A DNA stretch of 41,576 nt from an uncultured Pirellulaceae bacterium (GTDB lineage: Bacteria > Planctomycetota > Planctomycetia > Pirellulales > Pirellulaceae). The stretch lies in assembly GCA_947258905.1 (NCBI GenBank), contig CAMYKF010000675.1, positions 1 through 41,576 on the forward strand, in the 5' to 3' direction. A program made the position numbers and the translations under genes. Shown one piece after another: positions 35 through 32,670 of the stretch. The number at the start of each line of letters is the position of its first letter. Position 1 is the stretch's first letter. Under the pieces are notes generated by a model. It saw only the letters and a program-made list of their open reading frames with translations, had not been told where the DNA came from and made no database searches.

Positions 35-1150
35 ATGGAAAATTCGCCCAAAGTCGATCTTTCGATTGTCGCCCGCAATCTCGAACTCCCCGAACATCAG
101 GTTCGCATTGCCGTCGAGTTGCTGGATGACGGCAACACGATTCCGTTTATCGCGCGTTATCGAAAAGACGAAACGGGCGGGCTCGCGGAACGTCCTTTGC
201 GCAACATCCATCAGGAAGTTGCCCGTCTGAATGCGCTGGCCGAGCGCAAGGCGACGATCCTCAAGTCGCTGGAAAACCAGGACAAACTGACCGGAGACTT
301 GCGGTCCCGTATCGAACAGGCAACCCAGTCACGCGCGCTGGAAGACCTGTATTTGCCCTACAAGCCCCGGAAGCAGACAGCTGCTGCCCTGGCTCGGCAA
401 CAAGGACTGGATCCGCTGGCCCGGGACATCCTCGAAGGCCGTGAGCCAGATGTCGACCTGGCGTCAAGAGCCACCGACTTTGTACGAGTCGACAAGGGAC
501 TGAACTCGGTCGATGAAGTCATCGAAGGCGTCAGGCACATACTTGCAGAAAAATTTGCCGAGCATGTTCAGCTAAGAAAACAAATCCGCAAGATCTATCG
601 CGAGTCCGCCAAGCTGGCAACGAAAGTCGCTGATCAGCAGCTGGAAGCGGACGGCAAACAACCGCCTGAGGCGAAACAGCAGCAAGCGAGAGCTGCCGGC
701 CAGCCGGATGTGGCGACAGAAACAGCCAATCCGGAATCCGCCGACCCGCCAACACCGAACAGCCAATCCGGAATCCGCCGACCCGCCAACACCGAAGGTT
801 CCGGCATCTGCCGAAACGCAGAACGCGGCCCCCGCCGAAACTCCGCAGCCGGATGTGGCAACAGAAACAGCCAATCCGGAATCCGCCGACCCGCCAACAC
901 CGAAAGATCCGGCATCTGCCGAAACGCAGAACGCGGCCCCCGCCGAGACTCCGCAGCCGGATGTGGCAACGGAAACAGCCAATCCGGAATCCGCCGACCC
1001 GCCGACTCCGAAAGATCCGGCATCTGCCGAAATGCAGAACGCGGCCCCCGCCGAAACTCCGCAGCCGGATACATCCAGCGAACCACTTGCCGCTGCCTCG
1101 CAGCCAGCGACCGAGACCACGCAACCCACCGAGACCACGCAACCCATTAG
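35..1150 (+). CDS. tex: Tex transcription accessory protein, N-terminal segment (frameshifted)
   Basis: This is the front half of a Tex (toxin expression) family protein, a cytoplasmic RNA-binding transcription accessory factor. The ATG at 35 is the only usable start, because an in-frame TGA lies at 5-7. Residues 1-200 match the Tex N-terminal helical region, including the typical stretch GNTIPFIARYRKDETGGL and LEDLYLPYKPRKQT. From about residue 220 the chain enters a Pro/Ala/Glu/Thr-rich repeat. A 37-bp duplication at 721-794 shifts the frame there, so residues encoded after about 757 are out of frame (Arg/Gly/Cys-rich, unlike Tex) up to the stop at 1150. The genuine continuation is the reading frame of 708-3350. 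Either the gene is broken or the duplication is a variable or assembly artefact. No clear Shine-Dalgarno sequence precedes the start. Confidence 0.8.
   Translation: MENSPKVDLSIVARNLELPEHQVRIAVELLDDGNTIPFIARYRKDETGGLAERPLRNIHQEVARLNALAERKATILKSLENQDKLTGDLRSRIEQATQSRALEDLYLPYKPRKQTAAALARQQGLDPLARDILEGREPDVDLASRATDFVRVDKGLNSVDEVIEGVRHILAEKFAEHVQLRKQIRKIYRESAKLATKVADQQLEADGKQPPEAKQQQARAAGQPDVATETANPESADPPTPNSQSGIRRPANTEGSGICRNAERGPRRNSAAGCGNRNSQSGIRRPANTERSGICRNAERGPRRDSAAGCGNGNSQSGIRRPADSERSGICRNAERGPRRNSAAGYIQRTTCRCLAASDRDHATHRDHATH
701..1061 (+). repeat. 108-bp tandem coding repeat in tex
   Basis: The sequence cagccggatg recurs at 701, 846, 954 and 1062. The last two spacings are exactly 108 bp. 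The first is 145 bp, which is 108 plus a 37-bp internal duplication. Each 108-bp unit codes for 36 residues rich in Pro, Ala, Glu and Thr, such as PDVATETANPESADPPTP followed by KDPASAETQNAAPAETPQ. Units differ by only a few bases, so they are recent or homogenised. The likely role is a flexible linker between the N-terminal region and the catalytic-like core of Tex. Confidence 0.93.
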
Positions 1151-3350
1151 CGCAGCCGGAAAAGACGACACAACGATCGCGGGTCAGGCCGAGCAGACGG
1201 CCACTGCCACGGCAATCGAATCGCCATCAACCACCGAGCCAGTGGCAGCACCATCCCGCCGCAAAAAGAAAAAAAAGAAGAAAGCCAAACCCGATCCCTT
1301 CGCGGAATTCCGCGACTTCTCGGAAACTGTGCAGAAATTGCCACCGCACCGCATCCTTGCCATTAATCGCGGGGAACGTGCGGGACGGATCGAGGTCAGG
1401 TTTCAGGCCGACGCAGATCGAATTCGCGAAGCATCGCGGAAGGCACTGATTCCCGAAAATCACCCCTTCACCGAGTTCCTGAACACCGCAGTCGAACAAT
1501 CGCTGAACGAGTTGATTCTGCCGAGCATCGAACGGGAAATCCGTCGCGATCTGACGGAACGTTCGGAAACACACGCCGTCAATGTGTTTGCCCGCAACCT
1601 GCGGCACCTGTTTCTGCAACCACCCGTCTCGGGCCATCGCATTCTGGGAGTCGATCCGGGATATCGTTCGGGCTGCAAGGCCGCCGCCATTGACGAAACC
1701 GGGCAGCCGCTCGGCCACGGTGTGTTTTCCATCGTGGGCAACGAAGAACGCATCAATCACAACAAACAACGCCTGGTCGATCTGGTCAACAAATTCGAGC
1801 CCGAATTGATTGCCATTGGAAACGGCAATGGTTGCCGCGCCGTCGAGCAATTTGTTTCGCAGGTCATCAACAACGAACTGGCCAATCGCAATCTGCAGTA
1901 CACAATCGTGAATCAGGCCGGCACCAGTGCCTACTCGACCGGCGAAACCGCGCGCGAGGAATTACCCGATCACGATCCGGTCATTCGCAGTGCTATCTCC
2001 ATCGCCCGACGGTTGCAGGATCCGCTCTCGGAACTCGTTAAAGTCAACCCGGCCAATATCGGCGTGGGCATGTACCAGCATGACATCAAGGCCCAGCACC
2101 TGGCGGACGCGCTGGATGCCGAAGTCGCATCCTGCGTCAACCTGGTCGGTGTGAATGCCAACACCGCTGGAGTTTCACTGCTCAAATACGTTTCCGGTCT
2201 GGGCCAGACGGCAGCCGCCAATCTGGTCGAATCTCGCAAAGCCAACGGGCCGTTCAGTTCGCGCGAAGATTTGAAAAAGGTTTCCGGATTTGGCGATGTA
2301 ACGTTCGTGCAAGCTGCCGGATTTCTGCGAATCGGTGACAGCGCCAACCAACTGGATCGGACGGCAATACACCCCGAAAGTTACGAGATTGCTGAGAAGA
2401 TTCTTGCCTCGCTGCAATGCAAGATCGAGGAACTGGAACTTCCCAAACAGGATTATTTGCGTCGTACCCAGGCGGCGCCCCCTGCGACCAGCGACGCCGG
2501 TCAGTCGACGGCGACGCCGGAAGGGCCGGCAACCACGCAGGAAGTAGCGACCCCAACGGATCCGGCCAGCGAGACGAGCCTCGAAAAAACGGAGGCCTCG
2601 CCAGCGGAATCCGCACCCAAACCACCTGCCACCGAACCGTCACCGGGCGAGTTTGCCGCGAAAAAGAAACGCCGCAACGAATTGGTGCACAAAATCAAGG
2701 CGCTGGATGCGGCCAAACTGGCTCGCGAAATGAATGTCGGTGAAATGAAAATTCGCGACATCCTGCGATCCATCCGCAACCCGCTGCAGGATCCGCGTGA
2801 CGAATCTCCCGCGCCCGTATTTCGCAAGGGAATTCTCAAACTCGAAGACCTCAAGCCGGGCATGCAATTGCGCGGGCAAATCGTCAATGTGGTTGACTTT
2901 GGCGTGTTCCTCAACGTAGGCATCGGTGAAAGCTGCCTGGTTCACATCAGCCGCCTGTCCAATCGCTACGTGCGTGATCCTCACTGGTTTTTTGCCGTGG
3001 GTGACGTGTTGAATGTGTGGGTGCAGGAAGTCGACAAGGAAAAACGGCGGGTGACGCTGACCGCGATTCGACCCGAATCAGCGAGGCGGGAACGACGCAG
3101 ACCTCCGCGAGGCGAAGCGCGGGGGGCGGGCAAGGCTGCGGGTCGCGGACGTGGCCGCGGCGGCGGTCGTAGCGGCAAGCCGCAGGGCAAGGGGAAACCG
3201 CATCACAAACGGACTCGCAAGCCAAAACCGGTCACGCCGATCACTCAGGAAATGGTCGAAGGCAAGAAACCCATGCGATCCTTCTCTGACTTGTTGCAGT
3301 TTCACAAAAAGAAGACTGACGACGAAAAGGACAAGGACAAGGAATCCTGA
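708..3350 (+). CDS. tex: Tex transcription accessory protein, central and C-terminal segment (YqgF-like, HhH, S1)
   Basis: This frame carries the rest of Tex. After the repeat linker and a lysine run (about 1258-1290) come the second part of the helical core, the YqgF/RNase H-like domain (starting HRILGVDPGYRSGCK), the helix-hairpin-helix region (LLKYVSGLGQTAAANLVE and VSGFGDVTFVQAAGFLRI), a second Pro/Ala/Thr linker, and an S1 RNA-binding domain (MQLRGQIVNVVDFGVFLNVG, then LVHISRLSNRYV). A basic Arg/Gly/Lys tail of about 100 residues follows. Tex is usually near 780 residues; both linkers and the tail make this one much longer. The ATG at 708 lies inside the repeat and is probably not a natural start. 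The real protein should begin at 35 and reach this frame if the 37-bp duplication were absent. Confidence 0.85.
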   Translation: MWRQKQPIRNPPTRQHRTANPESADPPTPKVPASAETQNAAPAETPQPDVATETANPESADPPTPKDPASAETQNAAPAETPQPDVATETANPESADPPTPKDPASAEMQNAAPAETPQPDTSSEPLAAASQPATETTQPTETTQPISAAGKDDTTIAGQAEQTATATAIESPSTTEPVAAPSRRKKKKKKKAKPDPFAEFRDFSETVQKLPPHRILAINRGERAGRIEVRFQADADRIREASRKALIPENHPFTEFLNTAVEQSLNELILPSIEREIRRDLTERSETHAVNVFARNLRHLFLQPPVSGHRILGVDPGYRSGCKAAAIDETGQPLGHGVFSIVGNEERINHNKQRLVDLVNKFEPELIAIGNGNGCRAVEQFVSQVINNELANRNLQYTIVNQAGTSAYSTGETAREELPDHDPVIRSAISIARRLQDPLSELVKVNPANIGVGMYQHDIKAQHLADALDAEVASCVNLVGVNANTAGVSLLKYVSGLGQTAAANLVESRKANGPFSSREDLKKVSGFGDVTFVQAAGFLRIGDSANQLDRTAIHPESYEIAEKILASLQCKIEELELPKQDYLRRTQAAPPATSDAGQSTATPEGPATTQEVATPTDPASETSLEKTEASPAESAPKPPATEPSPGEFAAKKKRRNELVHKIKALDAAKLAREMNVGEMKIRDILRSIRNPLQDPRDESPAPVFRKGILKLEDLKPGMQLRGQIVNVVDFGVFLNVGIGESCLVHISRLSNRYVRDPHWFFAVGDVLNVWVQEVDKEKRRVTLTAIRPESARRERRRPPRGEARGAGKAAGRGRGRGGGRSGKPQGKGKPHHKRTRKPKPVTPITQEMVEGKKPMRSFSDLLQFHKKKTDDEKDKDKES
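721..794 (+). repeat. 37-bp direct duplication that shifts the tex frame
   Basis: Bases 721-757 are repeated exactly at 758-794, both starting aacagccaatccggaatccg. Since 37 is 3x12+1, the duplication moves the reading frame from that of position 35 to that of position 708. Removing one copy would join the two tex frames into a single chain. The copy sits inside the 108-bp repeat, so replication slippage or an assembly error in a repetitive tract are both plausible. Confidence 0.93.
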
Positions 3351-31822: not shown

Positions 31823-32478
31823 ATGAAACACTTTTTTATCACCGTCTTGATTTCCGCGATCTTGATCTCCGGTTGCCAACCACCGGCCGAACCGGCCGCT
31901 GAGACACCGCGTAATGTCGAGCAAGTCGCCACCGAGTACTTTGCCACGTTCGCCGAACGTGCCGATTGGGACAAACTGCTTTCCTTCTATTCACCGGACT
32001 TGAAATTCGAAGACATCGTCTTGCAGATGAAGCTGGAGAGCTTTGACGAGTTCAAGGAATTCTACGATTGGCCCAATCCTGATTTTGAGAAGCTGACTCC
32101 CGATCAACAGCACCTGGTCGTGGAAACTTTGGCCACGTACGACAACCGCGTCGCCGTCGCCCGCGGCCATCTCAGTCCCTTCATGTGGAAAGGGAAATAG
32201 TTGACCCGCCCACCGGCCTCGAATTCACCATCTGGCTCTACTTCGACGACAACCTCAAAATCATCCGCCAGATCGACTGGATGGAATACGATCACGGCGT
32301 GTTGGAAAGCGTGATCAAGCGGGTGCGGGAGGAAGGAGAGGACCAAGACCTCTCCGGTCGTAGCGGAAGTCGCCAGACTTTCCAATTTCCTTTCGGAACT
32401 CTGGCGAGTTCCGCTACGCCCAGCTGCGCCAGCGCTCGGCGACTGCCGCGAACAGGACCGAGGGAGTCCCCTAACTAG
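31823..32478 (+). pseudogene. Frameshifted lipoprotein with SnoaL/NTF2-like domain
   Basis: The first frame (ATG 31823 to TAG at 32198-32200) has a lipoprotein signal, MKHFFITVLISAILISGC, with the lipobox ending at Cys18, and then VEQVATEYFATFAERADWDK, typical of SnoaL-like domains. It stops after GHLSPFMWKGK. The next frame from about 32190 continues naturally: EIVDPPTGLEFTIWLYFDDN, then LKIIRQIDWMEYD. Adding one G in the aaagggaaa stretch at about 32188-32196 would join them. After about 32345 the second frame runs into a palindromic repeat and ends at 32478 inside a terminal inverted repeat. Decay or a sequencing slip are both possible. Confidence 0.75.
32359..32418. repeat. Palindromic repeat
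   Basis: CGTAGCGGAAGTCGCCAGA (32359-32377) pairs with the arm at 32400-32418 with one mismatch in 19. The loop is about 22 nt. It overlaps the degraded 3' end of the lipoprotein gene, so an insertion or repeat spread may have truncated that gene. Confidence 0.8.
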
Positions 32479-32670
32479 CTACTGAAACTGAGCAGATTTG
32501 CAGATCGCTCAAGAATGTAGGCGAACGAGGCCCTTCGTTCGCCAGGCAGCATGTCCGACCGGATGGTTGCAGATCATCTGCGTTTCAGCATCAAATCACG
32601 GCGAATCCGACATCTGCTGAGCGAAGGACCTCGCTCAGCTACACAAAAAGTGCACAGTTTGAGTAGCTAG
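32475..32670. mobile_element. MITE-like 196-bp element with 20-bp terminal inverted repeats
   Basis: The left end CTAGCTACTGAAACTGAGCA (32475-32494) and the right end (32651-32670) are inverted copies with 18 of 20 matches. Further in, gtaggcgaacgaggcccttc (from 32517) and the inverted gtagctgagcgaggtccttc (ending 32643) form a second inverted pair. There is no coding potential, so any transposase would act in trans. I see no clear target-site duplication. The ends give TAG stops in both directions: the lipoprotein frame ends at 32478 and the gene at 32667-32897 ends within the right repeat. Confidence 0.55.

Follow-up and report, generated by a model that had tools for sequence, protein, structure and literature searches.

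A REP pair inside a MITE-like element from a planctomycete family whose duplicated target resembles facing stop codons

Introduction

Among the systems closest to the element described here are the bacterial MITEs, exemplified by NEMIS/Correia, RUP and Nezha (listed in PMC3733652), which are non-coding, multicopy elements of 70-300 bp with terminal inverted repeats and a target duplication. The family analyzed here resembles them in all of these respects, but it has other ends and another target (one resembling two facing stop codons), and its parent element was not found. A second group comprises the GTAG REPs and REPINs (PMC3733652, in its sections on these repeats; PMC3116915), with which our sequences share the GTAG tag, a short stem, the head-to-head pair with GTAG outside, the dispersed units and the presence of tyrosine transposase genes. 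The same sections of PMC3733652, a survey that includes planctomycetes, describe the head-to-head pair with GTAG outside as the preferred dimer in most families, and report that REPtrons have been lost in some species. In contrast to these repeats, the pair studied here lies inside transposon ends with a duplication, and no RAYT is directly flanked.

Two further cases are relevant. The GTAG-15 dimers of A. variabilis lie in long palindromes, such that one inverted sequence regularly encloses REP dimers, as is also true here. However, in the section of PMC3733652 that covers it, the A. variabilis palindrome is reported only in association with REPs and there is no mention of a duplication, whereas the ends studied here enclose other interiors and carry duplications. 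TIRtrons and TIRYT repeats, as treated in the corresponding part of PMC3733652, are likewise inverted-repeat families in genomes holding Y1 transposase genes, but our ends surround no Y1_Tnp gene of their own genome and flank 6-7-bp duplications.

Herein we analyze an element in a stretch of planctomycete DNA of 41,576 nucleotides (the window). We conclude that it is very probably a non-autonomous MITE, one copy of a multicopy planctomycete family, with a REP pair inside and transposon ends outside, that is presumably moved in trans into TRR(N)YYA targets. The family is a new one; it combines known kinds of element and is unusual in its target preference. In the open-access literature searched, we found no description of MITEs that insert into a stop-codon-shaped target and whose interiors are REP pairs in one species but different repeats in others. 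A MITE with ordinary transposon ends that carries a REP pair links two classes of miniature mobile DNA that have mostly been considered separately.

Results and Discussion

Boundaries and parts of the element

A sequence-only reading of the window had proposed a 196-bp element with 20-bp terminal inverted repeats at 32475-32494 and 32651-32670. This inverted pair is real, matching at 18 of 20 positions, and is the sole pair in the window with a match of at least 18/20 and a length of 120-260 bp; ten shuffled windows yielded none. However, the outer seven bases of each 20-bp arm (CTAGCTA and TAGCTAG) consist of the palindromic target duplication and one additional base. The actual terminal inverted repeat is therefore 13 bp (CTGAAACTGAGCA versus CTCAAACTGTGCA, 11 of 13 matching), and the element proper is 182 bp. 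The 13-bp ends, which are common to all full copies, are written CTCAAACTGAGCRGTTT in joint notation and CTCAAACTGAGCGGTTT as the end sequence for comparison with IS elements. As had been noted, there is no gene inside: the element proper lacks a notable reading frame and agrees with MITEs in being non-coding and in size, about 70-400 bp being usual for them. A second inverted pair noted within the element also exists, and consists of two opposed 27-nt GTAG hairpins of one repeat family, although their identity as a REP pair had been missed. The parts are as follows.

32476-32481, no strand: target-site duplication, left copy TAGCTA; contains the TAG stop (32476-32478) of the plus-strand frame
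32482-32663, plus strand: element proper, type A, 182 bp; exactly this span is common to about ten further copies
32482-32494, plus strand: left terminal inverted repeat CTGAAACTGAGCA; family consensus CTCAAACTGAGCR
32517-32543, plus strand: REP unit 1, GTAGGCGAACGAGGCCCTTCGTTCGCC; dispersed family with stem covariation
32544-32615, no strand: spacer between the REP units, with a weaker inverted pair inside
32616-32642, minus strand: REP unit 2, facing unit 1 head to head; a GTAG hairpin whose stem is of the CTGAGCGA subtype
32651-32663, minus strand: right terminal inverted repeat, read CTCAAACTGTGCA
32664-32669, no strand: target-site duplication, right copy TAGCTA; contains the stop of the minus-strand frame 32897-32667

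The TANNTA at the ends is target duplication and not part of the element. Reading it as an extension of the inverted end was rejected because the non-palindromic cases repeat directly. The stop codons that CTAG ends had been thought to supply to frames from both sides are indeed there, but they belong to the duplicated target rather than to the element.

Copies in the host genome and absence from relatives

The window carries PSCyt1/PSCyt2/PSD1 and DUF1501 genes, which indicates a planctomycete host; the MAG that represents this host totals 5.5 Mb and comprises 763 contigs. Approximately ten further copies, near-full or partial and 83-96% identical, are present in this MAG at unrelated sites. 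When aligned with their flanks, the copies are similar from end to end while the flanks are unrelated. The element is absent from the 39 relatives searched, including two genomes of the same genus. In these two sister genomes, a mere ~130 bp separate the SlyX-like gene from the small membrane-protein gene, and no element lies between them. This is the opposite of a single copy conserved in place with no similar ends elsewhere, the outcome that had been named as fatal to a mobile element.

The ends are more widely distributed in the host genome than the type A element. With at most one mismatch, CTCAAACTGAGCR occurs at 41 sites, compared to 12 for the reversed control. Two other kinds of small element have these ends, namely type B, with three other hairpins (contigs C99, C190 and C220), and type C/D, which is 162 bp long and again includes a REP pair (C424). 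One type B copy has inserted into a C/D copy and is flanked there by a perfect CATCTA duplication; a C/D paralogue without the insertion represents the unfilled counterpart of this site. Thus, the expected empty site was recovered as a filled and unfilled paralogous pair for the nested insertion, but not for the window copy, for which the sister genomes, being too diverged, offer no exact empty site. Together, the copies, shared ends, duplications and nested insertion support the proposal that this is a small non-autonomous element.

Several individual copies have peculiarities. At locus L009 other sequence takes the place of the left arm up to precisely the GTAG of REP unit 1, which suggests a break at the REP boundary, and the contig terminates within the right end of the copy. 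At L011 the right REP and part of the spacer are tandemly duplicated, and a perfect non-palindromic TACTTA duplication surrounds the copy. Loci L003 and L004 have a common left flank (found also at the end of C152, L020) and different right flanks, reflecting either an assembly fork or a strain mixture.

The target duplication and its coincidence with stop codons

Among 66 candidate sites of the end family, which include some chance pairs and broken copies, 21 have perfect 6-7-bp direct repeats and 19 more have repeats with one mismatch; several copies lack a recognizable duplication. The direct repeats vary between copies and agree within each copy. This left-right agreement exceeds all between-copy permutations in the pooled set and in the outside genomes, and is evident for type A alone (p = 0.0004), whereas there are not enough copies of type B or type C/D for it to emerge in either type separately.

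The duplicated target reads TRR(N)YYA, which corresponds to two facing stop codons. The 21 perfect duplications have 42 ends, 30 of which are stop codons when read inward from either side, versus 4.8 in shuffled targets. Because the target reads as a stop in both directions, insertions are frequently located at the stop codons of genes and each frame keeps its stop. Sufficient sequence was available for 84 flanks, and a frame ends exactly in the duplication for 18 of them, each belonging to a different one of 42 copies, compared to 0-4 at seven control offsets, where reading frames of at least 120 codons were considered and were called mechanically rather than taken from curated genes. Sites of the TRR(N)YYA motif outside long frames coincide with the stop of a frame in 16% of cases (68/419), and against this background the binomial probability is 0.0005 (computed with 16 of 42, the observed count being 18). 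Selection against insertions inside genes may add to the coincidence.

In the window, the plus-strand frame ending at 32478 and the minus-strand frame 32897-32667 each stop in one TAGCTA copy. Before insertion, both frames would have shared a single TAGCTA for their stops, and therefore neither is likely to have been broken by the element. The gene on the left side, at 31823-32478, encodes a SnoaL-like lipoprotein and appears to be frameshifted near 32190, with the frame 32185-32478 continuing the protein, which could reflect decay or an assembly error.

The position between convergent reading frames, and the many copies directly behind stop codons, also fit a large bidirectional hairpin that is kept for an RNA function, such as 3'-end protection or termination, and that is not a transposon. 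Moreover, the element strand folds better than 200 of 200 shuffled sequences both as DNA (z = -5.3) and as RNA (z = -6.1). However, the element is multicopy with duplications, is not conserved in place in relatives, belongs to no Rfam family and shows no intrinsic-terminator pattern, and we consider this explanation highly improbable. A function as intrinsic terminator was rejected on the last of these grounds. A MITE copy may nevertheless have a secondary role at mRNA 3' ends.

The interior is a REP pair

The interior has the GTAG REP format and is a REPIN-type head-to-head pair. Its two REP units, at 32517-32543 (+) and 32616-32642 (-), are oppositely oriented with GTAG outside. Each is composed of GTAG, a GGCCCT-type loop and a 9-bp stem, the final G of the tag being part of the first base pair of the stem. 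With at most two mismatches, the motif GTAGNNGANCGAGGCCCTTCG matches 54 sites in the genome versus none for the reversed pattern, and many REP sites lie outside type A elements, either alone, paired or in short arrays. Across 16 distinct REP units, 97.2% of stem cells pair and 18 cells are changed on both sides. The stem covariation score is 0.399, compared to 0.173 for shuffled sequences and at most 0.078 when the stem is slid.

Nine Y1_Tnp (Y1 transposase) matches were identified in the genome, and the two that were compared with the model for REP-associated tyrosine transposases scored 75.1 and 69.3 bits, just under the 80-bit cut-off. No unit of this REP family directly flanks any of the nine matches, as it would in a REPtron, although some contigs are cut there; the nearest unit, on contig C409, is separated from an IS200-type gene by ~2.3 kb. 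We infer that REP-associated tyrosine transposases of the same genome handle these REPs.

The whole unit could also be a large REP-type element moved by a REP- or TIR-associated tyrosine (HUH) transposase, with the outer repeats serving as part of its recognition structure and the direct repeats reflecting a target preference rather than a duplication. The REP pair inside the element and the two Y1 transposase genes near the RAYT model are in keeping with this possibility, as are the tyrosine transposase genes with long flanking inverted repeats, and the repeat families of such ends, described in the part of PMC3733652 that deals with them. However, each copy has its own 6-7-bp direct repeat, which agrees left and right, and no Y1_Tnp locus of the host genome is bounded on both sides by a close match to the ends. 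Interiors without REPs also occur between the same ends, which argues against a REP-driven origin. IS200/IS605-type enzymes are not known to make a target duplication, and the presence of one argues against movement of the whole unit by such an enzyme. We therefore regard this reading as unlikely. Classification as an IS200/IS605-type single-strand element, which should lack both a duplication and terminal inverted repeats, was rejected because both are present.

Other repeats of this kind were encountered. An array of three REP units, a head-to-head pair plus a third, lies outside any MITE (L178). Just upstream of the window element, at 32356-32418, there is another GTAG-tagged inverted repeat (GTAGCGGAAGTCGCCAGAC ... 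GTTCCGCTAC), and a GTAGCGGAAGTCGCCA stretch similar to it borders the type B copy on C220 (L174).

A wider family of ends and the search for a transposase

A scan of 85,000 genomes with TANNTACTCAAACTGAGCGG matched 13 stretches, 12 of which are in planctomycete MAGs. Two of the matching genomes contain many elements of 233-241 bp with the same ends and a different interior, and in relatives of these two the elements measure 165-184 bp and 173 bp and have further different interiors. Overall, elements of ~165-241 bp in other planctomycete MAGs combine the same ends with unrelated interiors and many perfect 6-7-bp duplications. The end family is patchy, since the 14-nt end is near chance level outside the host genome in a broad sample of the phylum. 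We found no support for the idea that inner palindromes of the G214-type element are dispersed outside elements; the extra matches inspected, among the loci at hand, lie in truncated copies. A minimal element of 94 bp in another genome from a planctomycete order (G628, L281) lies between TAATCA and TAACCA; it shares the ends but has no obvious inner hairpin.

The sequence-only reading had also called for a transposase with matching ends, and none was found in the genomes examined. Pairs of end motifs 1-6 kb apart around end sites in genomes G000, G214, G215, G216, G217, G600 and G606 enclose no transposase, and the DDE_Tnp_1 loci of four carrier genomes do not have these ends on both sides. 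No autonomous relative with the same ends was thus found in the MAGs examined, although this is weak evidence given that the MAGs are fragmented and that DDE_Tnp_1 was the family searched. ISDol1, which makes 6-7-bp duplications, was considered as a parent. Three end matches in viral contigs have no partner, and plasmids gave no match. The ends, which are shared between planctomycete groups, offer a handle for the missing transposase.

Proposed mode of spread

The mobilizer is probably a DDE-type transposase, and we infer that it acts in trans. Such an enzyme would recognize the CTCAAACTGAGCRGTTT ends and cut at CTC...GAG, after which the element would be joined to a staggered, short, AT-rich palindromic TRR(N)YYA target, duplicating 6-7 bp. 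Copies would in this way often arrive on the stop codons of genes, as for the window copy between its two convergent frames, and the duplication would preserve each stop. The REP pair, a REPIN-type unit, would ride inside the element as a passenger.

Carriage by a MITE would offer REPs a second route of spreading besides RAYTs, and a stop-codon-shaped target suggests how small elements can accumulate next to gene 3' ends while leaving the genes intact. A broader reading, which we put forward tentatively and consider rather doubtful, is that one planctomycete transposase lineage with CTCAAACTGAGCRGTTT ends spreads gene-less elements whose unrelated interiors are swapped (REP pairs in the species of the window) and which are aimed at facing stops, such that insertion at the end of a gene would double its stop and cause little damage, a safe-site strategy with REPINs as cargo.

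Another feature of the window

Elsewhere in the window, a Tex/S1-type gene is split over two frames (35-1150 and 708-3350) and contains a tandemly repeated coding segment (QPDVATETANPESADPPTPK...) at 600-1150.
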